64,000 nt of DNA from Bacteroidales bacterium (GTDB lineage: Bacteria; Bacteroidota; Bacteroidia; Bacteroidales; WCHB1-69): positions 16,915-80,914 of the forward strand of contig JAEEQE010000008.1 of the NCBI GenBank assembly GCA_016285145.1. The letters are read 5' to 3'. The position numbers and the translations under genes were made by a program. Shown here in pieces: positions 29,073-64,000 of this stretch; position 1 is the first letter of the stretch, and every line of letters starts with the position of its first letter. Under the pieces are notes generated by a model. That model saw only the letters and a list, made by a program, of their open reading frames with translations. It did not search any database and was not told the origin of the DNA.

Positions 29073-32000
29073 CTATTTCTTCACGAAACTCTTCGTCACC
29101 ACGCCCTTCTCGGTGCTGATGCGCACGAAATACATGCCGGCAGAGAGCTCCCTCACATCCAACTCAACCGTATTGGCATTCACTTCCACCGTTTTCAACA
29201 ACTTGCCATAGACATCATACACCTGAACATTGTTCATTGTAAACTGTTCATTGTAAATTGTCAATTGTCCGGAGGTCGGGTTCGGGAAGAGGCTGGTAGC
29301 CAGTTCGTAGTCGGTGATGCCATCGGCCAACGTGGTGAAATTGATCATGCCCGATGTCGCTGTCTGTCCATCAGTGCAATTCGCCACCACATACACAGAA
29401 TACGTCGTTTCCGGCAGCAGGCCCGTAAGCACATACGGGTGCTCGCTCACTGTAACGGTGGATTCCTGAGACACACCATTCTCCTTGTAATGGATAGTCC
29501 AAGAGGTGGCGGTGCCGTTCTCCGTCCAGTTCAGTTTCACGCTGTTCTTTGTCATCTCCGTGGCCGTCAGGTTGGTCGGCTCCTGGCATCCGGATGGCAA
29601 AGCCATCGTAGTGAACGTCAACTCGGCAGACCAGTCGCTGCTGGCATTGTCACCGCACACGGCCTTGACCGCCACCTTGTATTCGGTTGCCGGGTCAAGG
29701 TTGCTGAGCGTATAATGATTCGTGGCAACAGGTTGCTGATTCCAATTCGTTTCACTGGTTTTTCTATATTGTAAAATCCAGGAAACCGCGTTATTGGCAT
29801 CCCAAGAAAGTTCCACCGAAGAGGTTGTGATGGTGCCAGACGTCAGACCCGTAGGGGCCAGACAAGCATCTGCCTGCGGCGTGGTGAACGTGAGCGTGTT
29901 GCTCCATTCGCTACTCATGTTGCCACCGCAGAGGGCACGCACGCGAACTTCGTAGTTGGTTTCTGCCGTCAGGTTGGACAACACACAGTTCGGTGCGCTG
30001 ACATTCATCGTCTGCCACGTGGCATCCGATTGGGTCTTGTAGTTCACCTCCCATTGGCTGGCTCCATTAGGACTCCAGCTGATAGAAGCACTGTTGGCCG
30101 TCAAATTGGAGTATGCCAAGTTGGTGGGTTGGTCGCACACCACAATCGGACGCACGGCGATGTCGTCAACGCAGCAGCGGTACGCCAGCGTAGTGGATGT
30201 TGGGTAAGTGTTCACCCACTTGAAGGCGATGCGGGCACCCGCCGGCACATTAGTGACATTCTGGAACGTGACGGAATCTCTGGTTATCGCCGTGACGGGT
30301 ACAATATTGGCCACCGGTACGAACGTGCCGATATTGTACGGATCCGTCGTGTATCCGACCTCCAAACGCACGTATGTGGCATCGGCAGTACCCATACGTT
30401 TGGAGAAAGCAATGCTGATGTTGGACAATGACTCGTTGAATTCCGGCAACGCCACCAAGGTGGAATCCGTGGGATAAGCCTGCATCAACAGCGTGTTGGG
30501 CTCGCTGGAAGCGAATGCGTATGATGTGGAGGCCAGACGGGAAACCACGTGCGGCTGCCATGCGGAAGCCTCAAAGGTGCTGTAACCGTGCCAGCAATCC
30601 GGAAGCACACCCTCTGTCTGATAGGTGGCATTTGTCGTAATGGCATCAAAGTTCTCAAGATAAGGCAGAGCTTGCGGAGCACACACCGTTTGGGCTGTGA
30701 CAGCATCCGAATATGCGCTACCGTCGCTTGCGGTACAGTTCGCCATCACGGCAAATTCATACGTCGTACCCGCTTGCAAACCGGTCACCACATACGGGTG
30801 GGTTGTCACATTCGGGAGATAGGAATACGTGCTCGTGCCCGCTTCAGCGTAACGGATGGTGTAGCTGGCCGGCGAGTCATTCCACGGGTCGTTCCAATCC
30901 AACGTTGCCGAGTTGGCGGTCACCTGAGTCACCATCAAACCTTCCGGATCGAAACAAGACGGGATCTCTGACACCACAACATTGTCCACATAAACCGTGT
31001 TATAGGCAGGAGTCCGCGACAGGAAAGCAATAAAGTTTCCATTACCGCTGTACTGGCTGAACACCACGCGCTTGGGCTCAAAGATGCTGGGCAGAGGAGA
31101 CGACACCGTATCCACAGGCACAAAGGTGCTCAGGTCATGCGGATCCGTCATTACACCTACTATCAGGAAATAGTCGGCAGAGGAGGCTTTATAGTCAAAT
31201 TGTACCTGTAACGTGTTGATATTCCGGTTAAACGGAGGTGTCGTGGCCAACGAGTAAGTAGTGCTGCTGGAATAGAAATACAGTGCCGCACCCGATGTGA
31301 TATACGGATAATTTGTGGTAGCCGAATAGGTATTTTCCCTCTCCCAACAATGCGGGAAAGCGGCAGATCCCGTTCCCTGATTTTCAAAATCTTGCACAAA
31401 CGGCAGCGAGTCAATCGGCGTACAATCTGTGCGGAACGAGTAAACCTGGCTCCAAGCGCTGTTTTCGGTAGGGCTACAGATTGAGCGAGCATATACGTCA
31501 TAGTTGGTGCCCGGGGTAAGACCGGTGATGGTGAGACTGTCTTCGTAAGCAATCACCGAGGTGGCACCCGCCACCAGCACATCAGGACTGAAGCCTTCAG
31601 GACCGTAGGCCACTTCCCATTCGGTTTCACCACTGCCGTTACGCCATTTCAGGGAGGCCGAGGTCATGGTGATATCGGTGGCCGTGAGGTTGGCCGGCTT
31701 CACACAACCCGGAGCATACGTCACCGACAGGTTGTCGATATACAACGTGGCCGCCGTCTGTACGGAACGGATAGCGAGGAACTTGCCTGTTCCGACATAC
31801 GAGGTGAATGGGATGTGGAACTCGTTCCACACCGTGGTGCGGGCATTGACCGTCTCTACATGCTCAAATGTACTCATATCCGACGGATTGCTCATCACAC
31901 CCACCTCAACAGAATAGTTGAGATTAGAGAATTTTCCGAAGAAATTCAATTGTAACACATTGATATTGGCATCAAATTCGGGCAGAACGGCATAGTTGCT

Positions 32001-35000
32001 CGTTGTCGAGCTGGTGTAGAAATAAAGATAGTTGCCAATATAGACATACGAAGCGCTGTTGTTCGTATATAATGTTCCATTACCTGTCTTGGTCCAACAC
32101 TCCGGAACATTGCCCGTCCCAGTGGACATATTGTCGAAATCATGGGAATACGGTACCGGGAACGGAGCGCACGTTGTGGTGAAATTGCAGGCAAACGACC
32201 ACGGAGAGGGGGATCCATCCGGACAAATGTTGCGAACGTAGAACGTATATTCCGTGTTGGGTTGCAGGTTGTCCAAGAGGAATGAGCTTCCCGGATTGTA
32301 GATTGTAATCGGCGTGGCCGTGTCGGGCAGGAAGCCAGGCTCGCCATATACATATTCACAACTGCTGACGTTCGGCGTGGAATACCATACGATTTCGGCA
32401 CTTTCCGATGAGACACCGTGGACCGTGACATCCAACGGCATAAAACAACTTTCTGCCGTGTCAATCACCATATCATCTATTCTAACCGTGTTGGTCCGCT
32501 CCTTATCTCCGCACTTGATCGCGATAAAGCGGCCCGTGCCAGTATAATTGGCAAAATAGACGCTCATATCCTCCCATGTGGACAATGTAGAAGGACAAAT
32601 GGCCTGAACCGGAACAAACGAGTTGGGATTCGCCGGATTATCCATCACACCCACCACCACTTTGTTTTCGGCGGTTGTGATTTTAGCCTTGAATGACATC
32701 TTCAACGTGGTGAGGTCGATAGAGGCATCCAACTCCGGCAGAATGGCTATATCAAAATAGGTGGTCGTTGCGTATAAATAGAGGGCTCCGGGAAGCGTGT
32801 TCACATTGCCAACCGCCGTATTGACATACGGATAGGTGGTCGTGGTGCCACTGTAATATTTGCTCCAACAGTCAGGCAGATTTGTGTAACGGCTGACACT
32901 TCCATCGAAATTCTCTGTATAAGGGATGGTCGTAATGGCATTGCAAAGAGTGGTGGTCGTAATCTCATCCGTATAGGCGCTTTCATCACCATAGCCACAC
33001 ACAGATTTGATTTTGAACTGATAGATGGTACCGGCATTCAGCCCATGAAGCGTGTAAACCGTATCCGTAATACCTGGAACAGACGTCCACTGGGAAACGG
33101 TGTCCTCTTTGTATGCGATTTCCCATTCCGTTTCCATAGCACCCGGGCTCCAAGAAAGCGTGATGGATGTCTGGGTCTGTTCTTCCACCGACACATTCAC
33201 CGGTTTGTAGCAAGTGTGGATTTGGTCCAATGTAAAATTATCCAAATACATATTTGAAGTTATATTCGTGCCACCAAACTTAAAAGCGAGGAAACGGCCC
33301 GTGCCGGTATAGTTGGTGAATTCCACCAATTTCTCTTCCCACGTGTTCGTGGTGCTCACCTGAATTGTATCATACGGAACAAAAGTGTTGATATTCATGG
33401 AATCCGTCATGAATCCAATCATCAACATATAAGATGTGCTACTGCTTCTTACACGGAAAGTGGCAGCCAAACTCGAGATGTTGAAAGAATCGTCGATTCT
33501 GGGCGTGGCAAGAAAGTTCGAGTAGTACGTGTAATCGGATTGGCCACTCTGCGTACCACTGCTGAAATACACGGAAGCGGGTGCGGAGAAGTTTGTGGTA
33601 GTCAAATACGGATAGTAATTGTACGTGCCCGTATTGGTGCAGCCATGCGTCCAACAGGTGGGATGCGCATTGGAGCCCGTGCCATACGTATCGAAATTGT
33701 CGGTGAATGGCAGCGTGGAGATGATACCGCACTCTGTCATAAACGAATATTCCAACGACCAGGGACTCGCACTGCCCATACCGCAGTCGGCCTGTACCTG
33801 GACAGTGTAATTCGTGGAGGGTATCAGGTTGGCAACCGGACAGTTGCTCGTGGTCAGCCCACTATATTCCGTCCAAGCCGCATCATCATCGTTTGTAGGC
33901 TTTATGCGCAAGGTCCAGGATGACACATCGGGATTAGATTGCCAGGCAACATCCGCACTCGTGGTCGTGATATTGCTGGACGTCACATTTTCCGGTCTCG
34001 GACAGTCGTTCGTGAAATCCAAGTTCAATTCGTCAATATAATACATGCCAGTGCCCGTCGTGTTCAAACGGAAAGCGATATGGCGGTTGAAGCCTGTGGT
34101 CTGCACACTGTCGAAGCGGACTTCCACAAACTGATGTGAACCTGTAGCCGTAGGTACTGTATGAACCAATTCGAAGGTGGAGGTGTCAAACGGATTGCTC
34201 ATGACACCAATCTCCAGATTGCCAGAAGTGACAGCCACCTGGTAAGCCCAGAAATTGAGGGTCAAGCCCTCTATATTGGCATTGATCGGCGGGGTGGCCG
34301 CCCATGCGTTTTTACTGCTGAAACGCAAGGCCGCAGCGCCATCATGTGCATACGAAGTGGAGGTGTAAACCGACGGATAGGTCAGCGTGGCAGAGGAGGC
34401 ATACGCCATCGGACGGGTCCAGCAGTCCAGATAAGCATTATTGGCATAGGTGTTGAAATCCTGCATATATGGCACATCCAGCACATCCGAGCACAAGGTG
34501 GTGAATTCCTCCTCGAAGCAATAGGGACTTTCTCCACTGGCACAGGTCATCTTCACCTTGAATTTATATTTGTTGTCGTCGATAAGGCCCGTAACCGTAT
34601 ATGTGGTATCGGTAATGTTGGTGATTTCCACCCAAGTGGCCGCCGGGTCTTCCGCATCAAGGTAGGCCAATGTATAAGAGAGGGGCGTGCTGCCGGCAGG
34701 CGCATTCCATGAACAGGAAATGCTGTTGTCACTACCATTTGTCTGCACCAGATTCTCCGGCATGGAACATCCTGGTATAGTGACCGTCAAGTTGTCGATG
34801 AAAATTCCATTGTACCCATACGATGATCCCATAGGTGGCTTGGCTACTATAAAGGCAATGTAGCCGGCCGGGCCATTGTAATTGGCCAACGACAAGGTGT
34901 ACTCTTCATAATTCGTGGTTGTATTTTCAAGAGAATCCAATGGAATAAAAGTATTAAAGTCCACGGGATCTGTCACGATACCGATGACGACCTTGCTCTG

Positions 35001-37028
35001 ATAAGTTGCACTGGAGGAAGATTTTCGAGACATAAAACTAAGTTCCAGTGTATTCAGCGGATTGGTAAATGCCGGCAACACCACATAATTGGTACCACTG
35101 CTTGTGGCTGAATAGGAATACATATACAGATAATTGTTTCCGGAATATGCATTCGTGGTGGAGTTGTTGACATACGGGAAATTCTGGTTGGGCAACGAAT
35201 TGTCCTTGCGCCAGCAGTTCGGCACCGGATAGCCGCCGGCAGAACCGCCAGCGAAGCTTTCAAAGTCCTCTACATACGGGGCGGTTTTGGGCATACAAAC
35301 CGTCACAAAGGAAAGCGACGTGGCATAGTAATAGTCGCTGCCACAGTTCGGACGCACACGAACATCCACAGTATAGGAGGTGGCATCATCCAATCCGGTA
35401 ATCGTGTAGAAGGTATCCGTAACGCCGGTCACATCCGTCCAGGTGGCATCACCCGGCATCTTATAACTGAAATCGTAGGAAGACACTCCCGTGGAACTCC
35501 AGGAGATCTGCACCGAATTGGTGGTCATACCCGAAACCTCCATCGTGGAAGGATACATACAATCCGACCAATACATGCCGAAGTCGTCCAAGTATGAGGT
35601 GGCCCCTGTGGATCTAAGCGTGATGTACCGACCTTGGGCCGTGGTGCCTGCCAGATTTATTATGGCTTGCTGCCAGTCGGTATTTGCTGCCGGGGTGAAG
35701 GTTTGGATAGAGGTGAACGTATTAATATCCGTGGGATCGCTCATCACACCCACCTGGATGGCCGCCGCCGATGTGGCCGACGATTTTTTCAACCAAAACT
35801 GAACCGTCACATTTCTTGCCAGAGTGTCTGACAACAACGGCGGCGCGATGATATAAGAGCTGAGCGTTGATGACGCATACATATACACACTCGCGTTACC
35901 GGAATAATGGTACGTAGTGTACAAATAGGGATAAGAAGTGGCTGTTGTGGTATATTTCCGGTTCCAGCAGGGCACCTCAAAATGACCTGAACCCGTAGTG
36001 TAACCATCAAATTGCTCAGTGAACGGAAGCTGGGCTGCAACACAAGGATCAATGGGGGCAAGAGGCGTGGCTTCGCACACCGAACCGGACATAGCCGGAC
36101 TGCCCGTGCTATAGACAGCTTCCACCGTATAGCAGTAAGGAGTGTTTTCCAAAAGACCTGTATCAACATAAGAGAAACCCTCCTCCAAGGAGGTGTTCAG
36201 CAAATTGTAGTCGCGATAGACGCGGAAGCCGGAAAGGTTGTCAGAGACGAACTCGCCCTTCACCACAAACGGAATACCCATCTGTTCCAGGGAGGTGCCA
36301 TCCGTCAAAGCCGTCCAGTTTCCAGAATTGATGCTGTACTGTATGGCATTACCCGTGCTCAACTCGGTGAGGATGGAGCGAGGGGCAATCCAGGGCGTGT
36401 TGGAGGCTGTGAAGCAGACGGCCACCCAATACGTGCCGGCAGCCAACGATGTGTTGATATTGGCAGTAATCTGCATAATCGGACGATCGGTGTTCGTCAA
36501 AGCCGTAGCCGTGGTACGATAGATGCCCGTCCACTCCTGGGAGGCCATGCAGCTGACCGCACCGCTGGTCCACACCGGCACGGCGGTGGAATCTATCGGT
36601 TGGGTGTCGTAGATGCGCACATAGCAACCCGTAAACGGCGAGGATGTCGGTGTGCTGCCCGTCACGTAGGCAAAGAAATCGATTTTCGAAACCACCGCCG
36701 CCGCAGTCAAGGTGAAATCATCGGCAATCCAGTACGAATGGTCCATATCGCTAACCGTGGCATGGGCATTGTAACCATAATTGCCCTGACCGCCATACAT
36801 TGCGCTGACATCCGCACCATCCGCACCCGCTCCCGGACGCGTGACAAGGTCGGCCTGATCGAAAAGATTCAGACGGGAAGGCTGGGTGGTGCCATACGGC
36901 ACATCCCAAGTGATTTTCATTTTGGAATCAGATAACGGGATAACCGTCACGTTTTCAGGCGGATTCGTCTGGGCAAATCCTAAAACACTCACGAAAAGTG
37001 TTAAACATAATACAAACAGTTTTTTCAT
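29073..37028 (-). CDS. Giant modular surface protein, jelly-roll/FN3 repeats, T9SS type A (2651 residues)
   Basis: After a signal peptide (MKKLFVLCLTLFVSVLGFAQ) and an N-terminal unit of about 320 residues (SYWIADDFTL, TYWVAVCF), eight modules follow. Each begins with a Cys, then PY or PF..xFD or FE, then P.CW. It continues as a jelly-roll with GVM.DP and ends in a fibronectin type III (FN3) domain. Three extra FN3 domains and a T9SS type A sorting domain (YGKLLKTVEVNAN, GMYFVRISTEKGVVTKSFVKK) close the chain. Such proteins are exported through the outer membrane and anchored at the surface; adhesion or glycan binding is inferred from the jelly-roll and FN3 units. It is co-linear with the protein at 52427-60346, module by module. 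It has its own -7 element and terminator. Usual proteins of this kind are 500-1500 residues, so it is exceptionally long. Confidence 0.85.
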   Translation of the reverse strand: MKKLFVLCLTLFVSVLGFAQTNPPENVTVIPLSDSKMKITWDVPYGTTQPSRLNLFDQADLVTRPGAGADGADVSAMYGGQGNYGYNAHATVSDMDHSYWIADDFTLTAAAVVSKIDFFAYVTGSTPTSSPFTGCYVRIYDTQPIDSTAVPVWTSGAVSCMASQEWTGIYRTTATALTNTDRPIMQITANINTSLAAGTYWVAVCFTASNTPWIAPRSILTELSTGNAIQYSINSGNWTALTDGTSLEQMGIPFVVKGEFVSDNLSGFRVYRDYNLLNTSLEEGFSYVDTGLLENTPYCYTVEAVYSTGSPAMSGSVCEATPLAPIDPCVAAQLPFTEQFDGYTTGSGHFEVPCWNRKYTTTATSYPYLYTTYHYSGNASVYMYASSTLSSYIIAPPLLSDTLARNVTVQFWLKKSSATSAAAIQVGVMSDPTDINTFTSIQTFTPAANTDWQQAIINLAGTTAQGRYITLRSTGATSYLDDFGMYWSDCMYPSTMEVSGMTTNSVQISWSSTGVSSYDFSYKMPGDATWTDVTGVTDTFYTITGLDDATSYTVDVRVRPNCGSDYYYATSLSFVTVCMPKTAPYVEDFESFAGGSAGGYPVPNCWRKDNSLPNQNFPYVNNSTTNAYSGNNYLYMYSYSATSSGTNYVVLPAFTNPLNTLELSFMSRKSSSSATYQSKVVIGIVTDPVDFNTFIPLDSLENTTTNYEEYTLSLANYNGPAGYIAFIVAKPPMGSSYGYNGIFIDNLTVTIPGCSMPENLVQTNGSDNSISCSWNAPAGSTPLSYTLAYLDAEDPAATWVEITNITDTTYTVTGLIDDNKYKFKVKMTCASGESPYCFEEEFTTLCSDVLDVPYMQDFNTYANNAYLDCWTRPMAYASSATLTYPSVYTSTSYAHDGAAALRFSSKNAWAATPPINANIEGLTLNFWAYQVAVTSGNLEIGVMSNPFDTSTFELVHTVPTATGSHQFVEVRFDSVQTTGFNRHIAFRLNTTGTGMYYIDELNLDFTNDCPRPENVTSSNITTTSADVAWQSNPDVSSWTLRIKPTNDDDAAWTEYSGLTTSNCPVANLIPSTNYTVQVQADCGMGSASPWSLEYSFMTECGIISTLPFTDNFDTYGTGSNAHPTCWTHGCTNTGTYNYYPYLTTTNFSAPASVYFSSGTQSGQSDYTYYSNFLATPRIDDSFNISSLAATFRVRSSSTSYMLMIGFMTDSMNINTFVPYDTIQVSTTNTWEEKLVEFTNYTGTGRFLAFKFGGTNITSNMYLDNFTLDQIHTCYKPVNVSVEEQTQTSITLSWSPGAMETEWEIAYKEDTVSQWTSVPGITDTVYTLHGLNAGTIYQFKIKSVCGYGDESAYTDEITTTTLCNAITTIPYTENFDGSVSRYTNLPDCWSKYYSGTTTTYPYVNTAVGNVNTLPGALYLYATTTYFDIAILPELDASIDLTTLKMSFKAKITTAENKVVVGVMDNPANPNSFVPVQAICPSTLSTWEDMSVYFANYTGTGRFIAIKCGDKERTNTVRIDDMVIDTAESCFMPLDVTVHGVSSESAEIVWYSTPNVSSCEYVYGEPGFLPDTATPITIYNPGSSFLLDNLQPNTEYTFYVRNICPDGSPSPWSFACNFTTTCAPFPVPYSHDFDNMSTGTGNVPECWTKTGNGTLYTNNSASYVYIGNYLYFYTSSTTSNYAVLPEFDANINVLQLNFFGKFSNLNYSVEVGVMSNPSDMSTFEHVETVNARTTVWNEFHIPFTSYVGTGKFLAIRSVQTAATLYIDNLSVTYAPGCVKPANLTATDITMTSASLKWRNGSGETEWEVAYGPEGFSPDVLVAGATSVIAYEDSLTITGLTPGTNYDVYARSICSPTENSAWSQVYSFRTDCTPIDSLPFVQDFENQGTGSAAFPHCWERENTYSATTNYPYITSGAALYFYSSSTTYSLATTPPFNRNINTLQVQFDYKASSADYFLIVGVMTDPHDLSTFVPVDTVSSPLPSIFEPKRVVFSQYSGNGNFIAFLSRTPAYNTVYVDNVVVSEIPSCFDPEGLMVTQVTANSATLDWNDPWNDSPASYTIRYAEAGTSTYSYLPNVTTHPYVVTGLQAGTTYEFAVMANCTASDGSAYSDAVTAQTVCAPQALPYLENFDAITTNATYQTEGVLPDCWHGYSTFEASAWQPHVVSRLASTSYAFASSEPNTLLMQAYPTDSTLVALPEFNESLSNISIAFSKRMGTADATYVRLEVGYTTDPYNIGTFVPVANIVPVTAITRDSVTFQNVTNVPAGARIAFKWVNTYPTSTTLAYRCCVDDIAVRPIVVCDQPTNLAYSNLTANSASISWSPNGASQWEVNYKTQSDATWQTMNVSAPNCVLSNLTAETNYEVRVRALCGGNMSSEWSNTLTFTTPQADACLAPTGLTSGTITTSSVELSWDANNAVSWILQYRKTSETNWNQQPVATNHYTLSNLDPATEYKVAVKAVCGDNASSDWSAELTFTTMALPSGCQEPTNLTATEMTKNSVKLNWTENGTATSWTIHYKENGVSQESTVTVSEHPYVLTGLLPETTYSVYVVANCTDGQTATSGMINFTTLADGITDYELATSLFPNPTSGQLTIYNEQFTMNNVQVYDVYGKLLKTVEVNANTVELDVRELSAGMYFVRISTEKGVVTKSFVKK

Positions 37029-37094: not shown

Positions 37095-37102
37095 CAAAAA
37101 TA
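37095..37102 (-). promoter_or_regulatory. -7 promoter element of the 2651-residue protein gene
   Basis: TATTTTTG on the minus strand lies 67 nt before the ATG at 37028, right after the upstream terminator. Confidence 0.6.
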
Positions 37103-37103
37103 C

Positions 37104-37136
37104 AAAAAAAACGGCATCAGAAGATACCGTTTTTTG
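37104..37136 (-). terminator. Terminator of the 2948-residue protein gene
   Basis: The hairpin CGGTATC/GATGCCG (minus sense) is flanked by A and T runs, with eight T after it on the minus strand. Its sequence differs from the family shared by the other four surface-protein genes. Confidence 0.85.
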
Positions 37137-37164
37137 TTTCTAACAAATATTAAGGATACACCCG

Positions 37165-46011: not shown

Positions 46012-46390
46012 ACTATTGGGATTTTATATTTTTCTACTGGAATAATAAATTTGAAAACGGCGGTAAAGATACGAATTTTTCGGTTAACAAATACTGGGAG
46101 TTGCTATTAGCCATTGGCCGTTAGCCGTTAGCTATTGGCTTTTGTGTTAATGCCTGAATAAGGTTGACCGTTTGTCACTATTCACTATTCACTGATCACT
46201 AATCACTGGTCTCTGGTCTTTGGCCATTGGCTTTCTTTCACTTTAAGGTATTATAATTCATTATATTACTACCCCGGCCTGCGGCCACCCCTTCTTAAAG
46301 AAGGGGAATTTAACTTCTTAGTTTCTTAACTCCCTACATCCTCTCAACTCTAATCTCTAAACTCTCAACTCTCCCCCCCTCCCCATCAAC
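46012..46390. repeat. Intergenic repeat-rich region
   Basis: No gene is seen. It holds the -7 element of the gene at 37165-46011 (46064-46071), ATTGGC/TTAGCC tracts (46100-46140), the second copy of a 60-bp repeat (46141-46200), a compact palindrome CCCCTTCTT/AAGAAGGGG (46288-46306) after GGCCTGCGGCC, and pyrimidine-rich short repeats (46330-46385). Confidence 0.7.
46064..46071 (-). promoter_or_regulatory. Possible -7 element of the 2948-residue protein gene
   Basis: TATCTTTA followed by CCGCC on the minus strand is one base off the consensus, 53 nt before the ATG at 46011. Confidence 0.5.
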
Positions 46391-46434: not shown

Positions 46435-46451
46435 ATTATCGTATTAAATGT

Positions 46452-52237: not shown

Positions 52238-52245
52238 CAAAAATA
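52238..52245 (-). promoter_or_regulatory. -7 promoter element of the 1915-residue protein gene
   Basis: TATTTTTG on the minus strand lies 39 nt before the ATG at 52199. Confidence 0.6.
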
Positions 52246-52360: not shown

Positions 52361-52402
52361 AAAAAGGAGCCGACACCTTCCGGCATCGTCTCCTTTGATT
52401 TT
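52361..52402 (-). terminator. Terminator of the 2639-residue surface protein gene (family copy 3)
   Basis: Arms AAAGGAGCCGA (52363-52373) and TCGTCTCCTTT (52386-52396) with loop CACCTTCCGGCA; T-rich on the minus strand. Confidence 0.85.
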
Positions 52403-55400: not shown

Positions 55401-58400
55401 TAAACGGTACCATTACCTATTTTCCGCCAGCAGTCCGGCATGATGGACGGTCCGTTGTCGCCACTGTCGAAATCCTGAACATACGGAATGGTATGTGGCG
55501 AGCAGCCCGTGGTGAAGGAGCACGGCTCCGACCACGAAGAAAAACCGCCGTTGGGACATACGTTCCGGAGATAAAATGTGTAGGTCGTATTCGGCTCCAG
55601 ATTATCCAACACAAACGAATGGTTCTGATTGCTTACCAGATAAGTGGTGGCGGTATCCGGACGGAAGCCAGGGACGCCATACACATACTCGCAAGTATTG
55701 ATATTGGAAGTAGAGAACCACGTCATCTCGGCCTGATCAGATGTGATATTCCGTGCCGCCACACTCAACGGAATGAAACAGTCTTCGGCTATATCCAATA
55801 CGAGATTGTCGATACGCAAGGTGTTGAACTTGACACCATCACCGCAGCGGATGGCAATAAAACGTCCATAGCCTGTATAGGTGGCGAAAAAGATTTCCTC
55901 ATCCTCCCAAACGCCCAGCGTGGAGGGCACGATGCTCTTTATCGGCACAAATGTGTTCGGATTCATGGGATTGTTCATCACACCTACCACCACACCATTG
56001 TCGGCAGTAGTGCTCTTGGCCTTGAATGTCATCTTCAGGCTGCTGATATCTATCGTGCCATCTATCTCCGGCAAAACGGCAATGTCGAAATAGGCGGATG
56101 TGGCGTAACAATAAAGTGCTCCTGGAGGGGAATAAACATTCACGTCTGACGTGGAAACGTACGGGTAATTTGTAATCAACCCACTAAAATATTTGAGCCA
56201 ACAGGGTGGCAGATTGTAGGCGATGGTCAACACACTGTCGAAATTCTCCACGTATGGTATAGTGGTGATGGCATCGCAAAGGGTTGTCCCCATCACAGGA
56301 TCCGTGTAATCGGTCCCCGTGCCAGAACACACCGACTTGACCTTGAAATAATAAGTGGTGCCGGGTAATAACTGGTCTATTGTGAAAACGGTGTCATAAA
56401 TATAGGGGAACGACATCCATTGGGTTGCGGTGTCCTCCCTATAGGCTATTTCCCATTCGTACTCCGTATCGCCCGGTATCCAGGAAAGAGTGACGGATGT
56501 CAGGGACACCGAATCAATTTTCACCCTCTTCGGTTTGAAGCAGGTGGGGACATAATCCAGTACAAAATTATCCAGAAGCATCGACATATTAGAAGTTCCA
56601 CCTCCTATCAGAAAGGCTACGAAACGTCCGTTGCCCGCGTAGTCGTTGAACATGACGGTCTTCTCTTCCCAAACGGCCGCAGCATCCACCCGGATAGTAT
56701 CGTAGGGAACAAAAGTGGCGATATCCGAGGAGTCGGTCATAAAGCCAATCTGCAACCAAGTAGTGGAGGTGCTGCCTCTGACGCGGAACGTGGCGGCCAA
56801 GGTCTGGATATTGATGGCATCATCAATCCGGGGAGTGGCCGCGAATGATGAATAATAAGGAGGCGTCTGACCACTGCCGTTACTGCCACTGTAGAAAAGA
56901 AAAGCAGCGGGTGCCGAATAGTGGTAGTTGGGGTCAAAATAGGGCAGATAATTATAACTCGGATTATCGCAACCGTGTGTCCAACAATCAGGATAGGTGT
57001 AAGGAAGAGTCATATCATAATGGTCAAAATTCTCCTTGTACGGAAGATTGGCTATCGGCCCGCATCCGGTCATGAAGACATACTCCACCGACCAGTAGCT
57101 AAGGCTGCCCGGCCCACAATATGATTGCACCTGCACCACGTAGGCGGTGGAAGGTATCAGGTTGATGAAATTCTTGCTGTTGCCGACCTCCTGGTTGTAC
57201 TCTGTCCAATCCTCATTCCCATACAAGGGTTTGATGCGCACATTCCATAGGGCAACTATAGGATCATTCGTCCAAGTAGCTGTCGCCGTTGTGGCGGTGA
57301 TGTTGCTGAACCATACACTATCGGGACGGGGACAGGAATTGGTGACGTTCAAATCAAGGTCATCAATGTAATAGGCATACGCATTCGAACCTGTAGGATG
57401 GATGGCGATATAGCGATTGTGACCAGTGAGATGGACGCTGTCGAAGGAGATTTCCACAAACTGGTAGCTGTTGCCCGCCGGCAGTTGTACCGAACGAACC
57501 AACTCAAACGTCGTGGTATCACAGGGGTTGCTCATCACGCCCACATCCAGCGTGCCGCCGGCGGAGTTGTGACGGCTGGCCCAGAAGCTGAGCGTCAGCG
57601 TTTCAATATCGGCATTGATGGCCGGCGAAGCCATCCAACAATAATCATTCCCGAAACGCATAGAGTTGGTACCACTATGCGCATGATTGCTCTGCTGATG
57701 CACCGACGGCAATGTGATGGTGGAAACATACGCCGAAGGACGGGTCCAACACTCCATGTAGGATAAATCCTGCATAAAGTCGAAATTCTCATAATAGGGA
57801 ATTTCCAACGGATCGGAACAAAGCGTATAGAAAGTCTCGGTAAAGGTATATGCACTCTCGCCCGCAGAACAGACCACCTTCACCTTGAACAGATATTGAT
57901 GATTGTCCAAAAGCCCACTTACTGTATTGAAGGTATCCGTGATGTTTGGAATTTCAATCCATTGGTCATCGGTAGCCTCCACATCACGATAAGCCAACGT
58001 GTAGGATTGCGCGACTGTTCCCGCTGCCGGCGACCATGAACAGGTGATGGAATTGTCTGTCGCAGCCGTCTGCACCAAATTCTCTGGCTGGGAACAGTTG
58101 GCCACTGCCACTACCAGATTGTCCATATAGACGGTATTGAAGCCCGAAAGGGGCTTTGGAGCCTTCAGGGCAATACGCCCTGCGGGACCTGTGTAATTGG
58201 CAAAGGAGACCGCAAACGGCGCATACACGTTGGTGGTAGGCTCAATACTGCCCACCTGAACAAAGGTGCTGAAATCCATCGGATCGCTCATCACCCCCAC
58301 CAGAACCTTACCCACATACATGCCCGAGTTGTTGATCTCACGAGCCATACAACTCAACTCCAAAGAGCTGATCGGATTCGTGAAGGCCGGCAGTATGACA

Positions 58401-60346
58401 TAGTTGTCGCCATACGTGGCAGACGATGCGCTGGTTTGGAATTGAAGCAGGTTGCTGCCGCCATAGGCGTTGGCCACTGATGTGTAGATGCCCGGATAAT
58501 TTGATGATGCCACCGAATTTCTTTTAATCCAACACGTTGGCACCGGAAAACCCGTTGTCGTATTTCCCGTATAGCCTTCGAAATCCTGAACGTATGGGGC
58601 GGTGAGTTCAGGGCAGGCCGTCACAAACGACACCGATGTGGTGTACCAGGCCTCTCCGCCGCAACCGGGTTTCAATCGGATTTCCATCGTATAAGAAGTT
58701 GACGGATTCAATCCAGTAATCGTATAGAAGGTATCCGTAATTGGCTGTACGTCAATCCAATTCTCTTCTCCCGCCTCGCGATAGCTGATCAGATAGTCAG
58801 CCACACCCGTGGAGGGCCACGACAACTGTACCGAAGAGGAGGTGATTCCTGTGATGTCTATATCCGTAGGATACATACAATCGCTGGCAAAAATGCGGAA
58901 ATCATCCACATACGACAAGGCACCTAAGGAGAGGAGTGTGATATAACGCCCTTGGAAAGCATAGTTAGACAAGTCCACCGTTACTTTTTGCCAGTTGGTG
59001 TTGGAGGCCGGGTTCACTGTGCCAATAGGCGTGAATGTGTTTATATTGGTCGGGTCCGTCATATATCCTAACCGCATAATCGCCGCCGAGGTGGCATTAT
59101 CCTTTCTCATCATAAACTGCACCGTAACATGACGCAGCATGGTGTCATGAGGCAGCGGCGGGGCAACAATGTAGGAGCCTGTGGTGTTCGCCGCGTTCAT
59201 GTACACACAGGCATTATCGGTATAGCCATTCGTGGTAATATAAGGATACGACGTGCTGTTTATGGAATACAACCGATGCCAGCAAGGCACATTGAAATGT
59301 CCTAATCCTGTGGTCAATCCCTCAAACGACTGCATATAGGGCAGTGAATCCAGAATGCACGGGTCCACCGGCGCGTTGTCTGTCACCACGCACGTCTGCT
59401 GCGACATGGCCGGCGTGCCCACACTGTACACTGCCTCCACTGTATAGCAGTATTGCGTGGTTTCTGCCAGGCCGGTGTCTGTATAAGAATAACCTTCCAC
59501 TAAAGAGGTGTTCACCTGAAGACCATTTCTATAAATATTGTAACCGGCAAGATGGTCAGTGACAAACTCGCCCCGCACTATCAGCGGCAGGCCCATCTGC
59601 TCTAAGGAGGCGTTGTCCGTCATCGGCAGCCACAAGCCATTATCCTGCGAGTATTGCACCGCATTACCTGTGCTCAACTCAGCCACCGTGGCACGCGGCA
59701 CTGCATACACATCGCCCGGTCGCGAACCTGTGAAGCACACCGCAACCCAATAAGTGCCCGCCGCCAACGATGTGTTAATCTGCGCCGACACTTTCATGAT
59801 CGGGCGCGTGGTGTCCGCCAAATTGGTGTTTGTGGTACGGAAAATACCCGACCACTCGGTCGAAGCCATGCAGTTCACCGCATTGCCGGACCAAATGGGA
59901 ACAGCCGTGGAGTCCTCCGGACGACTATTGTAAATGCGCACATAACAACCCGTTATCGTAGAGATTGTTCCGCTGTTCGACTGGAAAGCATAAAAGTCAA
60001 TGTATGTCACCTGCGCCGAAGCGGCCAATGTGAAGTCGTCCGCCAGCCAGTACGAATGGTTTAAGTCCGCAGTATTGGCGGTTGCCCTATAGGACAAGGT
60101 GCTTTGTCCACCGTAAAGGGCACACAAATCCGCCCCGTGATAGCCCGCTCCGGGCCTTGTGACCATGTCGGCAGTATTGTACAGATAGGCACGCGTGGGT
60201 TGCGTGGCCCCCGCCGGCACACCCCAATCCAAACGCACCGAAGATGATGACAATACCGTTGCCGTCACATTCTGCGGCGGGTTGTTCTGGGCCATTGCCA
60301 TCATAGACAAAAATAGAGTTGCAAGCAACAGGTGAATCTTTTTCAT
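52427..60346 (-). CDS. Giant modular surface protein, paralogue of the 2651-residue protein, T9SS type A (2639 residues)
   Basis: The order matches the protein at 29073-37028: signal peptide (MKKIHLLLATLFLSMMAMAQ), N-terminal unit (HSYWLADDFTL, TYWVAVCFTGS, SLEQMG), eight jelly-roll plus FN3 modules, three more FN3 domains and a T9SS type A sorting domain. Corresponding modules keep the same landmarks: CWTHGC in module 4, GNGT in module 6, TYQTAGFLPDCW in module 8. This points to duplication of a whole gene. The C-terminal FN3 differs (CNAPTDLAVAADIYRATVVW), while the sorting domain is nearly identical, so exchange has affected only parts. A surface adhesin-like role is inferred. It has its own -7 element and terminator. 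Confidence 0.85.
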   Translation of the reverse strand: MKKIHLLLATLFLSMMAMAQNNPPQNVTATVLSSSSVRLDWGVPAGATQPTRAYLYNTADMVTRPGAGYHGADLCALYGGQSTLSYRATANTADLNHSYWLADDFTLAASAQVTYIDFYAFQSNSGTISTITGCYVRIYNSRPEDSTAVPIWSGNAVNCMASTEWSGIFRTTNTNLADTTRPIMKVSAQINTSLAAGTYWVAVCFTGSRPGDVYAVPRATVAELSTGNAVQYSQDNGLWLPMTDNASLEQMGLPLIVRGEFVTDHLAGYNIYRNGLQVNTSLVEGYSYTDTGLAETTQYCYTVEAVYSVGTPAMSQQTCVVTDNAPVDPCILDSLPYMQSFEGLTTGLGHFNVPCWHRLYSINSTSYPYITTNGYTDNACVYMNAANTTGSYIVAPPLPHDTMLRHVTVQFMMRKDNATSAAIMRLGYMTDPTNINTFTPIGTVNPASNTNWQKVTVDLSNYAFQGRYITLLSLGALSYVDDFRIFASDCMYPTDIDITGITSSSVQLSWPSTGVADYLISYREAGEENWIDVQPITDTFYTITGLNPSTSYTMEIRLKPGCGGEAWYTTSVSFVTACPELTAPYVQDFEGYTGNTTTGFPVPTCWIKRNSVASSNYPGIYTSVANAYGGSNLLQFQTSASSATYGDNYVILPAFTNPISSLELSCMAREINNSGMYVGKVLVGVMSDPMDFSTFVQVGSIEPTTNVYAPFAVSFANYTGPAGRIALKAPKPLSGFNTVYMDNLVVAVANCSQPENLVQTAATDNSITCSWSPAAGTVAQSYTLAYRDVEATDDQWIEIPNITDTFNTVSGLLDNHQYLFKVKVVCSAGESAYTFTETFYTLCSDPLEIPYYENFDFMQDLSYMECWTRPSAYVSTITLPSVHQQSNHAHSGTNSMRFGNDYCWMASPAINADIETLTLSFWASRHNSAGGTLDVGVMSNPCDTTTFELVRSVQLPAGNSYQFVEISFDSVHLTGHNRYIAIHPTGSNAYAYYIDDLDLNVTNSCPRPDSVWFSNITATTATATWTNDPIVALWNVRIKPLYGNEDWTEYNQEVGNSKNFINLIPSTAYVVQVQSYCGPGSLSYWSVEYVFMTGCGPIANLPYKENFDHYDMTLPYTYPDCWTHGCDNPSYNYLPYFDPNYHYSAPAAFLFYSGSNGSGQTPPYYSSFAATPRIDDAINIQTLAATFRVRGSTSTTWLQIGFMTDSSDIATFVPYDTIRVDAAAVWEEKTVMFNDYAGNGRFVAFLIGGGTSNMSMLLDNFVLDYVPTCFKPKRVKIDSVSLTSVTLSWIPGDTEYEWEIAYREDTATQWMSFPYIYDTVFTIDQLLPGTTYYFKVKSVCSGTGTDYTDPVMGTTLCDAITTIPYVENFDSVLTIAYNLPPCWLKYFSGLITNYPYVSTSDVNVYSPPGALYCYATSAYFDIAVLPEIDGTIDISSLKMTFKAKSTTADNGVVVGVMNNPMNPNTFVPIKSIVPSTLGVWEDEEIFFATYTGYGRFIAIRCGDGVKFNTLRIDNLVLDIAEDCFIPLSVAARNITSDQAEMTWFSTSNINTCEYVYGVPGFRPDTATTYLVSNQNHSFVLDNLEPNTTYTFYLRNVCPNGGFSSWSEPCSFTTGCSPHTIPYVQDFDSGDNGPSIMPDCWRKIGNGTVYVNNNSTCYSGNSLYMIAGSAAEAYVVLPELDATLNELQLNFFGRFSNLNYSLEVGVMSDPNDPSTFEHVETVQARTTVWNEFHIPLTSYLGTGKFIALHSVSTGTTLYMDNLSVTYAPGCVRPSNLIVQELTTTTAKLGWRPGNTENSWQLVYGPMGFNPSVSSGAVSIITTEDSLLLTNLTPATYYDAYVRSVCDTLERSEWSQKCSFRTDCVPISTLPFEEDFNNVVSVGPDVFPSCWERMSNFSTTTQYPHVTGSALYFSSGLDKYSLATTPPLDFNVSDLQLQFDFRSATMGYNLYVGVMDDPYDISTFVPMDTIYTTLVDQNIPYRILFTNYTGQGHYIAFLTWTTGYNYVYVDNVKISALPNCFEPEDLVATSTTNNSVTLDWNAGLSQSPMSYTIRYAEQGTGNYTYIRNVTTHPYVVTGLQPGTTYAFEVGTRCSVFDSSQFIGPVYAQTICNGMMSLPYVEKFDSVTTTATYQTAGFLPDCWSGYSTNIYPAMQPHIISSATSMYSYPSSAPNCLLLQATPTDTALTVLPLFDEPMSNVKLAFTRRMTTSDVASVQLMVGYVTDPYDMSSFVPVSDVSPETSPTRDTVTFLYVTNVPAGARIAFRWINTYTGAFITYRCCIDDIKVMPAIVCDRPTDFVASNVTAEGAVVSWNGYDAQRWNVRYRPVNGANWITMTVNAPTCTLTNLSEMTNYELQAQPICVNNISGPWSELFTFTTQQANVCLDPTSLTYSNVGYSSVHLSWDQNNAHSWNLRYKTAVTTWTVIPLSTNQYDLIGLDAETPYEVQVQAVCDNNLTSDWTASVSFTTLQAPVCNAPTDLAVAADIYRATVVWTPGDDENRWNVQIRANTDEWSEIIVETHTDHVFNNLQPNTPYQVRVQAVCDELNSEFAMISFNTLPDGIADYELGVNLYPNPNNGRFIINNEQLTMNNVQVYDVYGKLLKTVGMNANTVELDVRELASGMYFVRISTEKGVVTKSFVKK

Positions 60347-60410: not shown

Positions 60411-60418
60411 CAAATATA
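60411..60418 (-). promoter_or_regulatory. -7 promoter element of the 2639-residue protein gene
   Basis: TATATTTG on the minus strand, a perfect TAnnTTTG, is 65 nt before the ATG at 60346. Confidence 0.6.
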
Positions 60419-60532: not shown

Positions 60533-61486
60533 CTATTTACACTTCGGATTCTGAATGATTTGCTGGATTTGAGGAATCTCCAAATCCAAATATACCGCTA
60601 TTTGCTCCAAACTCATCCCATGGGTCATAAGGCGTATTATCAATTCACGCTTCCCTGTCAAAACACCTTGCTCCATACCTTGCTGTAAACCTTGTTTTAA
60701 ACCTTGTTCCAAACCTTGTGCAAGACCTTGATTGAGACCCTTTTCCATCGCTTTCTTTACTGAGAAATCAAAGATATTCTGACTGTCGCGTTCATGCTTG
60801 AGGTTGTCTTCATAATTCAAATACTCTTGACGACTCAGATTCGCGATTTCCGCCTGCTCGAACAGTTGATCGAAGACAGGCTCGCACAACTCCGCCGGAC
60901 GTTCTTCCAGTTGTTCCAGATTACACATCACATACGTCCATTTATCCAGCATCGTTTCAAGTTCTCCCACGCTTTTTCGAAACTTCGGCAATTCTATGTA
61001 GAAAAATGTCAGCTTTTCGTAAAACACGCTGTGATTGTGCGTGTCCAGCAACTTCACTTCATGACTATAATAGGTGTCCGAATCCTTGTCGTCCGTGAAT
61101 TCGAAATTCACAATCCCTACCGTGTAGATCCCCTTCAACTCGAAATTCCATTTCCCTTTCACCGCTTGCTCCTGTATCGGGAACGTTGTGTAGTAGATAC
61201 TCCTGTCCTTGAAAAAGGGCTGCATGGAGTTCTGCATCTCCACGATGAGCTTTTCCCCTCGCTCATTGTCACATTGCACGTCCAACACTCCATAGCGAGA
61301 ATCCCGCACCATCCCCAAATGCTCATTCCGTGTATATGTCACATCCCGTATTACCTCGTAACCTTCCAGCAAAGCATTCAAAAAACTGATCAACAGCGCC
61401 TTGTTCGCCTCCGTGGCAAACAATCGCTTGAATCCGAAGTCGAATCTCGGACATACATATCGTGCACCATAACCCCTGTTTATCAT
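60533..61486 (-). CDS. Rpn-family PD-(D/E)XK nuclease (transposase-like)
   Basis: The 317-residue protein belongs to the Rpn/PDDEXK_2 family, often annotated as transposase, whose studied members (E. coli RpnA) are recombination-promoting nucleases. Visible are the start ARYVCPRFDFGFKRLFATEANK, the nuclease core GVLDVQCDN plus KLIVEMQNSMQ (Asp and Glu-x-Gln), and the block RSIYYTTFPIQEQAVKG. The C-terminal tail carries a heptad-free QGL repeat (GLAQGLEQGLKQGLQQG) typical of the family. The ATG at 61486 is chosen because a -7 element lies 28 nt before it; the frame stays open for another 34 codons. It sits alone between two surface-protein genes. Terminal inverted repeats are not seen. Confidence 0.88.
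   Translation of the reverse strand: MINRGYGARYVCPRFDFGFKRLFATEANKALLISFLNALLEGYEVIRDVTYTRNEHLGMVRDSRYGVLDVQCDNERGEKLIVEMQNSMQPFFKDRSIYYTTFPIQEQAVKGKWNFELKGIYTVGIVNFEFTDDKDSDTYYSHEVKLLDTHNHSVFYEKLTFFYIELPKFRKSVGELETMLDKWTYVMCNLEQLEERPAELCEPVFDQLFEQAEIANLSRQEYLNYEDNLKHERDSQNIFDFSVKKAMEKGLNQGLAQGLEQGLKQGLQQGMEQGVLTGKRELIIRLMTHGMSLEQIAVYLDLEIPQIQQIIQNPKCK
60651..60730 (-). repeat. Short tandem repeats coding the QGL tail
   Basis: Repeated 12-nt-like units of CTTGTTTTAAACCTTG type encode the QG[LM] tail of the Rpn protein. Such repeats can change in number between strains. Confidence 0.6.
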
Positions 61487-61657
61487 ATATGTGTTTTTTA
61501 ATTTTTTCGAGCGCAAATATAATAAAAATATATTAAAACAAACAATTAAATTAAAATATTTTTTATATTCTGCATTTTTAACAATCAATTCTTAATTTTA
61601 AACACTGATAATTGGAGTTAAGAAACTTTGAATTTTGAAAATGCCCCCTTCACAAAA
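61487..61657. other. Intergenic region upstream of the Rpn gene
   Basis: A/T-rich spacer. It holds the Rpn gene -7 element at 61514-61521 and no gene. Confidence 0.5.
61514..61521 (-). promoter_or_regulatory. -7 promoter element of the Rpn-family gene
   Basis: TATATTTG on the minus strand, 28 nt before the ATG at 61486. Confidence 0.65.
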
Positions 61658-61700
61658 AAAAAAGGAGCCGACGCCTTCCGGCATCGGCTCCATTGAAATT
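61658..61700 (-). terminator. Terminator of the rightmost surface protein gene (family copy 4)
   Basis: Arms AAAGGAGCCGA (61661-61671) and TCGGCTCCATT (61684-61694) enclose CGCCTTCCGGCA; the A/T tracts continue on both sides. Confidence 0.85.
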
Positions 61701-61722
61701 TTTTCGTGTATAACGTGTGAGG

Positions 61723-64000
61723 CTACTTCTTCACGAAGCTCTTCGTAACAACGCCCTTCTCCGTACTGATGCGCACGAAGTACATGCCAGCGGAGAGCTC
61801 ATGGGCATCGATGACGGCCGTGTTGCTGTTCACCTCAACCGTCTTCAACAGCTTACCATAAACATCATACACATTCACACTGTTAATTGTAAATTGTTCA
61901 TTGTTAATTGTAAACTGTCCGTTGTTCGGGTTCGGGTAGAGGCTGGTAGCCAGCTCGTAGTCGGCGATACCGTCCGGCTCCGTGGTGAACGTCACCGTGT
62001 TGGAAGGCTCGCTCTGACCATTGGCACAGTTGGCAACCACATTCACCGTGTAGGTCGTGGCCGGCTGCAAGCCCGTAAGGGTGTAAGGCTTGCTGGTTGC
62101 GGTCGTCGTGCTCATATTGGCTGCATTTTCCTCTTTGTAGTTCACCGTCCAGGAGGTGGCATCGCCATTCTCCGTCCAGTTCAGCACCACGCTGTTCTTC
62201 GTCATGCCCGTGGCGGTGAGGTTGGAAGGAGCCATACAGGTATCCGGTTGCGGCGTGCCGCCGACAGTGATGGTAATGTCATCCAACAGGATTACGTCTT
62301 GGTCGTAGCAGTCATAGTGACGGAATGCCACATAGACCTGCTGGCCTGCGTACGCGCTGAGGTCAAGCGTCTGCTGCGTCCATGCGCCGTGCGTGTTGTC
62401 CGGAACGATGGTGAACAACGGCGTCGTGAAATCGGACACCGTGTTGCCCGTGCTTACATACACAGAGTATTTATCTGCAGGATAGCTGGCATCAACCATG
62501 AAATACCAGGAAAGCGTGATGGTGGATGATGCAGGAAGGTTGAATTTCGGCGAAATCAGATAGTTGTCCGGATATAGAGCATCATCGTCGTACGACAACG
62601 ATGCGGCCATATAACTGCCTGTATGCGGGGTCAAAGAGGTAGATCCGGTTGTGAGGAACCACGGCATACCGTCTCCGTCGTTATCCACTATCTGCCAACA
62701 GCCAAGACCGTTCTCGAAGCCTTCAGTGTAGGGGAATGTGGCAACAGCATCACACTCGGTGCTGGCGCTTACCGTCACCATGGTGGAGTGGTCTCCGCCA
62801 CCGCAATCGACTTCAACTCCAAAATTATAGTTGGTGCTGCTGGTCAGGCCCGTCACCGTGTAGGTGGTACCGTTAACATTCTGGGCAATCGGCGTGCTGG
62901 CATTAGCCATATCATAAATGTTATAGGTGGCGCCCGTGTTGTTGGCATCCGTCCACGTCAACGTGATACTGTTTGCCGTTGTCGCACTCACGGTAAGATT
63001 GGTCACAGGAATACAGGTCGGCGGAACATCAATGGAGATGTTGTCAATATACAAATAATACTGGTCATCCGACGTGCACTGGATAGCGATGTACTTGGCT
63101 CCAGCCGGGATGAGATCGCTATAATGCATCCAGTTGGACGATCCTGTGATTGAAATCTCATTGCCCCATGTGAAGGCTGTCACATCGTTCGTAGTGGTGG
63201 AATAGCCCACTTTGAATGTCTCCAAATAATATGTGGAATTGGATCCGTAATCAAATTCCAGTTGCAGCGGTGTGGTAGCAGCGGCAAATTGCGGTGAGAT
63301 CAGATACTGGGGATAGTCTGAGGTATAGTAGAATCTGAATCCATAGGAACCGGTATTAGCTGCAGAATTATTCACACCCGTGTAGGAATAGCAATTGTTC
63401 AGTGTCCAGCAGTCAATGCCGTTTTCAAAGCCCTCGGCAAACGGGATGGTTTGGATTCCACATTCTGTGTGAGCTGTCACTGTCACAATACCCGACAAAT
63501 CACCGCCTCCGCAATCGGTCTCCACCGCAAATGTGTAACCCGTGTTGGATATCAAAGAGGTAACCGTGAAGGTGGTGTCCGTGATACCAGAGGCCAACAC
63601 ACTGCTGTCGGACATATCGTAAACCGTGTAGGTGGCACCAATGTTCAAGTCATCCGACCAAACAAGCGTGATGCTGTTGTCCGTAGCAGCGCCAACGGCA
63701 AGATTAGTCACCGCCAAGCAGCTCGGAGCTTCCGTCACATGAAGGGTGTAATCGTGGAATACCATGTAGGAAGAGGAGGCACAAGGATCGTGTGCAGCCG
63801 TGGCGTCGCCAGCAATATAACTATCGAAGTAACTGTCAGCTCCTCCTATGCGCATACGGTAGAGGCCCGTATCCTGTGTGGCAGGAACCATGAATGATGC
63901 ATTAAGCGTGGTAGGACTCGAACTCGTGCTCGTACCCGTATAAACAACCTCATTGTCATCAAACACCATGTTGTTGTTCCAGTCCACCCAGATAAGTGTT
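61723..64000 (-). CDS. Modular surface protein with GEVED-like, FN3 and cleaved-adhesin domains, T9SS type A (5' end outside window)
   Basis: At least 758 residues are visible; the start lies beyond position 64000. From the edge inwards are a GEVED-like unit (MDWNNNMVFDDNEVVYTG), FN3, a jelly-roll (IPFAEGFENGIDCW), FN3, and a cleaved-adhesin-like jelly-roll. The last has FPYTEGFENGLGCWQIVDND, SPKFNLP and VAFRHYDCYDQDVILLDDI. A last FN3 and the T9SS type A sorting domain complete it. The cleaved-adhesin type is known from gingipain/hemagglutinin proteins, where it binds host or matrix molecules; here that is inference. The two FN3 domains have a distinct DCGGGD signature and differ from those of its neighbours, so it is not a simple copy of the other four. 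Confidence 0.85.
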   Translation of the reverse strand, partial: TLIWVDWNNNMVFDDNEVVYTGTSTSSSPTTLNASFMVPATQDTGLYRMRIGGADSYFDSYIAGDATAAHDPCASSSYMVFHDYTLHVTEAPSCLAVTNLAVGAATDNSITLVWSDDLNIGATYTVYDMSDSSVLASGITDTTFTVTSLISNTGYTFAVETDCGGGDLSGIVTVTAHTECGIQTIPFAEGFENGIDCWTLNNCYSYTGVNNSAANTGSYGFRFYYTSDYPQYLISPQFAAATTPLQLEFDYGSNSTYYLETFKVGYSTTTNDVTAFTWGNEISITGSSNWMHYSDLIPAGAKYIAIQCTSDDQYYLYIDNISIDVPPTCIPVTNLTVSATTANSITLTWTDANNTGATYNIYDMANASTPIAQNVNGTTYTVTGLTSSTNYNFGVEVDCGGGDHSTMVTVSASTECDAVATFPYTEGFENGLGCWQIVDNDGDGMPWFLTTGSTSLTPHTGSYMAASLSYDDDALYPDNYLISPKFNLPASSTITLSWYFMVDASYPADKYSVYVSTGNTVSDFTTPLFTIVPDNTHGAWTQQTLDLSAYAGQQVYVAFRHYDCYDQDVILLDDITITVGGTPQPDTCMAPSNLTATGMTKNSVVLNWTENGDATSWTVNYKEENAANMSTTTATSKPYTLTGLQPATTYTVNVVANCANGQSEPSNTVTFTTEPDGIADYELATSLYPNPNNGQFTINNEQFTINSVNVYDVYGKLLKTVEVNSNTAVIDAHELSAGMYFVRISTEKGVVTKSFVKK

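Follow-up and report, generated by a model that had tools for sequence, protein, structure and literature searches.

The block of giant genes and its relatives

The window analysed here is a stretch of 64,000 nucleotides (G000:C64:16915-80914) from a Bacteroidales metagenome-assembled genome (MAG) that we label G000, and its right end coincides with the end of the contig. The open reading frame (ORF) listing places five giant genes on the minus strand at 29073-63999, with products of 1915-2948 amino acids and the fifth gene truncated at the contig end. Gene A1 (29073-37028, minus; 2651 amino acids) has a start that is signal-peptide-like as judged by eye, then an N-terminal domain, eight pairs of a jelly-roll and an FN3 domain, two additional FN3 domains, and a type IX secretion system (T9SS) sorting domain. 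Eight jelly-rolls and 11 FN3 domains precede the sorting domain of B1 (37165-46011, minus; 2948 amino acids), and three and six precede that of B2 (46452-52199, minus; 1915 amino acids). A2 (52427-60346, minus; 2639 amino acids) has the same plan as A1, with a jelly-roll/FN3 count of 8/10 in both, and is 55% identical to it over the full length. The visible 3′ part of E (61723-63999, minus; 758 amino acids, no start) carries GEVED, Cleaved_Adhesin, FN3 and a sorting domain, with two jelly-rolls and three FN3 domains in view. All these counts come from profiles built on the family’s own proteins. ORFs, Pfam and NCBIfam matches, and these profiles agree with the original prediction of five giant same-strand T9SS genes with jelly-roll and FN3 modules and a common sorting end. 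Sizes and strand were correctly given, although an Rpn-family/PDDEXK_2 nuclease-transposase gene (60533-61588, minus; 351 amino acids) went unmentioned between E and A2.

The missing portion of E can be traced to another contig of the same genome. At its right end, contig C23 overlaps the end of C64 by exactly 54 bp, and this 54-mer has three copies in G000, two in C23 (one of them terminal) and one at the C64 end. The 5′ part on C23 encodes 1096 amino acids with FN3, GEVED and Cleaved_Adhesin, and is 96% identical to an 1841-amino-acid gene in a relative. Because of the overlap, the match to the relative’s gene, and the presence of the same domains in both parts, the sequences fit a single E gene split at a repeated GEVED stretch. 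On C23, E is preceded by gene F (2877 amino acids), which has the same tail.

All five window proteins match fn3 and Por_Secre_tail in Pfam, the latter at 54.5-57.5 bits against a cut-off of 27, and the NCBIfam sorting domain TIGR04183 likewise scores 54-59 bits against a cut-off of 23, which makes the sorting domain one of T9SS type A. The choice-of-anchor J family (NF038128, cut-off 30 bits) is matched by A1 (123.6 bits), A2 (135.8) and the 3′ part of E (144.8), whereas no match to this family is reported in B1, in B2 or in E's 5′ part. Cleaved_Adhesin (PF07675, cut-off 21.4) is present only in E, at 108.5 bits in the 3′ part and 28.2 in the 5′ part, and Pfam gives no match in A1, B1, B2 or A2. 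Genome-wide, G000 has 85 sorting-domain matches, and it encodes the translocon SprA (2458.6 bits) and the sortase PorU (1221.3 bits).

Three related MAGs, all Bacteroidales, carry the same block: G028 (matched to RGIG6923, from sheep rumen), G018 (RUI486) and G035 (RGIG7861, from water buffalo reticulum). E, A2 and B2 stand in the same order in all three, and the G035 gene in the A2 position is only about 54-55% identical to A2. B2 adjoins B1 in G028 and G018 as it does in the window; the G035 contig stops after B2, and that genome has B1 on another contig behind unrelated genes. A1 comes next after B1 in the window and G035. In G028, the genes found downstream in the window come after B1, and A1 is located elsewhere, with the neighbours that it also has in G018, so that its surroundings are common to two different MAGs, with 12 neighbouring genes matching at 88-100%. 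The gene before E also differs, being F in G000 and G018, X in G028 and Y in G035, and the closest bodies to Y are on other contigs of G000 and G018, namely in the second array, C26, and on C55. Because the E-A2-B2 order recurs while A1, B1 and the gene before E differ in place, gene order indicates that the block is real and predates these species, and that its members change places.

Most of the protein bodies, in contrast to gene positions, are stable. Body identity to orthologues is 79-95% for A1, A2, the further giant genes A3 and A4, B1 and B2, the exception being the G035 gene at the A2 place. Individual values are 83-94% for A1, 85-92% for B2, 92% for A2 (G028 and G018) and 79% for B1 (G035). 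A1 orthologues measure 2647-2650 amino acids in the three related MAGs, and B1 orthologues 2947 and 2949 in two. Eight jelly-rolls alternate with FN3 domains in every complete A1 (four), A2 (four), A3 (three) and A4 (four) gene examined, and B2 has three jelly-rolls in all four genomes, with the same module string in the three related MAGs. In contrast, the module string of E varies, with five, three and four jelly-rolls in G028, G018 and G035, respectively. Thus, bodies are fixed for most members, and the variability resides in the 3′ cassette, in gene position and in E. The fixed jelly-roll counts therefore contradict a picture of shuffling modules for most of the family.

The Rpn gene, whose profile matches include T_den_put_tspse, is probably not part of the adhesin set. 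In G035 the corresponding gap, between E and the gene in the A2 position, holds a gene 80% identical to it; G018 and G028 lack it there. We considered the Rpn gene as a mover of the array, which is unsupported because the gap is empty in two of the three relatives and the flanking genes keep their order. In the second array, the C26 contig of G000 carries a 4142-amino-acid member of the giant-gene family (L012, 5567-18010), to which giant genes on G035:C12 and on G018 contigs are related. A transposase-like ORF, as judged by eye, lies between two giant genes of this array (L012, 3865-4812).

Tails compared with bodies

For sequence comparisons, the tail was defined as the last 75 codons, which contain the sorting domain. 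In the window, these cassettes occupy 29076-29300 (A1, with a 7-bp-periodic tract), 37168-37392 (B1), 46455-46679 (B2), 52430-52654 (A2) and 61726-61950 (E), all on the minus strand. The difference between tail and body is clearest in A2. Its body is 92% identical to that of G028 A2 through the last FN3 domain, after which identity falls to 63% in the tail; over both G028 and G018, the tails are 63-65% identical at the amino acid level compared with 92% for the bodies.

Among the tails of nine G000 paralogues, the same codon is used at 1596 of 2179 identical residues (0.73). The corresponding value for bodies in G000 is 6708 of 16011 (0.42), and silent sites there are saturated. Control tails compared with the same nine give 206/420 (0.49) for A3 and 109/306 (0.36) for A4. 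The three related MAGs repeat the difference between tail and body (0.70 versus 0.42 in G028, 0.73 versus 0.41 in G018, 0.72 versus 0.41 in G035). So do six more genomes of the genus, picked for having several such genes on one contig and represented by two to five genes each (0.57/0.39, 0.69/0.46, 0.81/0.45, 0.62/0.39, 0.78/0.38 and 0.78/0.52).

A search for the nearest tail covered 45 genes from four genomes, 40 of them with an orthologous body. For these 40, the orthologue supplies the nearest tail in 14 cases, a paralogue in the same genome in 14, and some other gene in 12. All seven A3 and A4 control genes are among the 14 that find their orthologue, leaving seven orthologues, 14 own-genome paralogues and 12 others for the remaining 33 genes. 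Upstream segments of equal size mostly recover the orthologue (22/33 for the last FN3 domain, then 26/33, 27/33, 27/33 and 26/30), and short length alone is therefore not the explanation.

Approximately unbiased (AU) tests are consistent with these counts. A single clade of orthologous tails is rejected at p<0.05 in seven of nine sets, namely A1, A2, B1, E, F, C26a and a leucine-rich repeat (LRR) protein described below, and five of the seven rejections survive the Bonferroni cut of 0.0056 for nine tests. A3 and A4 tails form orthologous clades outright. Together, the sequences show the history of the tails to be uncoupled from the history of the bodies.

Sequence features that accompany the tails

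The sequences past the stop codons are also shared among family members. A 22-nucleotide hairpin core, searched with up to three mismatches, has nine copies in G000, each 31-39 nucleotides past the stop of a giant gene, so that it follows nine of the 11 giant genes, the exceptions being B1 and A4. In the window, the cores of this common type follow A1 (29015-29036), B2 (46397-46418), A2 (52366-52387) and E (61664-61685), and a terminator hairpin of another type follows B1 (37106-37135), all on the minus strand. Among 60 genomes, including its own, the core is found only in G000, G018, G028 and G035, plus one two-mismatch match in G052. Genes F and C26c, located on different contigs, have the first 27 nucleotides past the stop in common, and the gap downstream of the E genes in G018 and G028 opens with nearly the same letters.

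Upstream of the genes, the -7 promoter motif TAnnTTTG provides candidates for A1 (37095-37102), B2 (52238-52245) and A2 (60411-60418) on the minus strand. Exact matches occur at three of the four gene starts within the window and at nine of 10 giant-gene starts across G000, with a simulated chance of 0.03-0.17 per 120-nucleotide region for the four window starts. Most giant genes thus seem, from these motifs, to have their own promoter and terminator. This agrees with the earlier proposal of a -7 element for most genes and a terminator for each, except that the five hairpins are not alike: four are near-identical and that of B1 differs. A phase-variable switch was also considered and is not supported, the 5′ ends having no tandem repeat and no convincing inverted pair. 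The tandem repeats of the block are confined to the 3′ cassettes and the Rpn gene, with none at the starts. Inverted pairs of at least 14 nucleotides are absent around the four starts except at B2 and before A2, where we found, respectively, one AT-rich 14-nucleotide pair 218 nucleotides apart and two short palindrome-like pairs.

Within the sorting domain, the DNA between the PNP and YDVYG motifs is periodic. Its self-match is 0.57, 0.57 and 0.60 at lags of 7, 14 and 21, compared with 0.20-0.30 at other lags, in 64 segments from 10 genomes that are related and hence not independent. Shuffling codons within segments lowers the lag-7 value to 0.283, with a maximum of 0.304 in 300 shuffles. The peptides encoded by the tract vary between genomes. 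Forty other G000 sorting domains average 0.268 at lag 7, and the four that reach 0.45 all have a YDVYGK- or YDVFGK-type tail. Degenerate 7-bp runs seen by eye in the intergenic segments 28784-29000 and 46012-46451 (AGTGAAT-, CCAACGG- and GAGTTGA-like) are apparently the same kind of repeat. Intergenic heptamer repeats of some Bacteroidetes are described, in a different setting, in PMC4679880.

An unrelated protein carries the same kind of tail. Near array genes in G035 and G018, a 512-amino-acid BspA-like LRR (LRR_5) protein bears the array tail; the two LRR passengers are 95% identical, and the nearest relative of each tail is an array gene in the same genome. The G000 orthologue (69% identical, contig C28) has a wholly different tail, the break falling at YPNP, where the sorting domain starts. 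The passenger is matched in 17 of 40 genus genomes, G000, G018 and G035 among them, and in the nine of the other 14 genomes where its tail was read, none is of the window’s array type. Because the LRR tails read in other genus genomes are of another type, this distribution suggests that the LRR protein acquired the array tail, presumably in that direction. LRR tails in G010 and G007 (L105 and L109) have an array-like first half followed by the usual LRR type, possibly a partial exchange.

An exchanged secretion cassette and its alternatives

Given these observations, the block probably belongs to a multigene family of giant, adhesive surface rods exported by the T9SS. Such rods are in themselves a known kind; in this family, recombination probably exchanges the sorting cassette. 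Each giant protein would be exported, its tail removed, and the chain anchored at the outer surface. The kinship of the modules and the adhesins of the gingipain/HagA system suggest that the jelly-rolls may bind glycans or proteins on feed particles, in host mucus or on adjacent cells. The tails would be moved by homologous recombination (gene conversion) among 3′ ends that resemble one another, perhaps assisted by the 7-bp-periodic tract. Such exchange would keep the tails in one pool, might make it easier for array genes to trade places, and could occasionally hand an array tail to an unrelated passenger such as the LRR protein.

A more specific proposal can be advanced tentatively. The sorting domain, 7-bp tract, post-stop stretch and terminator might together constitute an exchangeable 3′ secretion cassette that is circulated by recombination among giant genes and is transferable to unrelated passengers. 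Because heptamers of the same kind also occur in intergenic DNA and differ between genomes, it may be the DNA repeat that seeds exchange, with the peptide encoded by the tract as its by-product.

Several results weigh against cassette exchange or narrow its scope. The tail alignments span only 225 nucleotides and are therefore short. In the AU tests, A2 (p 0.012) and the LRR set (p 0.018) fail the strict multiple-test cut, and the tails of B2 (p 0.08) and C26b (p 0.33) are compatible with orthology. Tails are not simply grouped by genome, with 21 label changes compared with a shuffled mean of 24.8 (6 of 200 shuffles as low), and genome clustering is clear only in G035; this weak clustering is consistent with exchange within a shared pool rather than complete homogenisation. 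A3 has the common terminator despite its distinct tail, and B1 has an array tail with another terminator. The A3 case, a common terminator without an array tail, shows that tail and terminator are not always coupled. The Foldseek matches of a module are partial, with a best TMq of 0.40 among the 50 matches listed. Finally, exact shared stretches at the 3′ ends reach 65 nucleotides in G000 and 71 in G018, long enough that some chimeric joins are possible in short-read MAGs.

Such joins raise the prospect that a short-read assembler jumped between near-identical 3′ ends and thereby generated chimeric genes and a false tail exchange. The contigs of the source MAG do break inside the family, and exact shared stretches reach 65-71 nucleotides. 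However, no G000 tail copies another (the best pair within the genome is 0.93), the tails of A3 and A4 go with their orthologues, A1 has the same 12 neighbours in two MAGs, and E, A2 and B2 recur in order in three others, so we regard this explanation as very improbable. A chimeric assembly of the block as a whole was rejected on the same order, and the exact 54-bp overlap through which the cut gene continues makes an artefact of that kind unlikely as well. Only slightly better placed is a plain family of duplicated adhesins without cassette exchange, in which constraint from the sortase and translocon keeps sorting domains alike by strong purifying selection. Sorting domains are functionally constrained, the B2 and C26b tails fit orthology, and genome clustering is weak overall. 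Against it, codons at identical residues agree as well (0.73 compared with 0.42), with A3 and A4 tails reaching just 0.49 and 0.36, paralogues also have the terminator and part of the post-stop stretch in common, and A2 tails drop to 63% identity between G000 and G028 when the bodies hold at 92%. We therefore consider it unlikely.

A different question is what the rods do. They could bind each other as a structural matrix, S-layer-like, and build a coat or gliding tracks, for which the constant eight jelly-rolls of A-type genes would be better suited, as a structural ruler, than for a variable adhesin. Against this stand the patchy distribution of the A-type N-terminal domain, present in nine of 40 genus genomes including its own (E<=1e-30), and the description of related modules in gingipains and HagA as haemagglutinin-adhesins. 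On balance a matrix role is doubtful, though less so than either of the explanations without exchange.

An AlphaFold2 model of one module is confident and nearly all beta (pLDDT, the predicted local distance difference test, 92.8), and Foldseek relates it to FN3 tandems, MAM-Ig-FN proteins and glycoside hydrolase chains, always in part, with the matched part of the enzymes not shown. The A-type N-terminal domain (36054-36968 in A1; 59372-60286 in A2) is, by sequence profile, apparently an FN3 domain split by an insert of about 210 residues. Solved FN3-type structures match it at the two ends only; its model is weak (pLDDT 74.9), and the fold search is partial and mostly FN3-like. Hidden enzymes were rejected, as neither the five window proteins nor E's 5′ part show a catalytic domain in the Pfam and NCBIfam results. 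As we read them, the matches to Pur_ac_phosph_N, GH101_dom-5, RGI_lyase and CbhB (the last far under its cut-off) fall on FN3-like or accessory stretches. A phage origin was rejected as well: A2, the only protein tried, has no match among 50,697 phage records at 1e-10.

The closest parallel is the gingipain/HagA system of Porphyromonas gingivalis, for which one account (PMC5266723) mentions combinatorial modularity of the adhesin regions, recombination and gene conversion. Both systems comprise T9SS cargo with repeated adhesin domains (there cleaved adhesin domains and DUF2436) and a conserved sorting domain. It is the adhesin modules of the body that are exchanged there, whereas in our family bodies are mostly stable and the sorting domain, mostly with the terminator, would be exchanged; jelly-rolls here also alternate with FN3 domains. 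Pfam and NCBIfam results show no gingipain protease family (RgpA, Kgp) for any of the five window proteins or for E's 5′ part, and thus the family would work like gingipain/HagA rather than belong to it. The choice-of-anchor J and FN3 T9SS proteins of Bacteroidota (NF038128, TIGR04183) are alike in module types and sorting domain, but these family definitions include neither a multi-gene array nor a common 3′ cassette. BspA-like LRR_5 T9SS proteins have the same tail in G018 and G035 on an unrelated passenger. In meningococcal TpsA, a functional C-terminus is reportedly swapped behind a constant secretion part. The window array, in contrast, would swap the constant secretion signal itself. The likeness is exchange at the 3′ end of a secreted-protein gene, 3′-end domain exchange of TpsA being described in PMC3848433. 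In the open-access literature searched, we found no report of exchange of T9SS sorting domains, and the terms concerted evolution or gene conversion were met with T9SS only in reference lists.

These comparisons modify the earlier view of the block in several respects. Its adhesin-type build and its conservation are upheld by the module make-up and the recurrence in three MAGs, and these independent assemblies make the accompanying doubt about an assembly artefact unlikely. The separately controlled variants that it envisaged apparently do have separate promoters, but the modules in which they were expected to vary are unchanged in most members (the A-type and B2 counts are fixed, and only E varies). 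The suggestion that no such system had been described is only partly right, given that the modular build is a known T9SS adhesin-like type with a parallel in gingipain/HagA. On the evidence of the sequences, giant modular T9SS rods are known, and what is unusual is the evolutionary behaviour of their secretion tails.

T9SS tails are usually viewed as conserved labels that follow their gene. Short-read assemblies can break within families such as this one, and calling orthologues or types from the 3′ ends of such genes will give misleading results. Since the tail here, and mostly the terminator, have a history of their own, the surface repertoire could renew itself via the export signal, and not solely via the binding modules.

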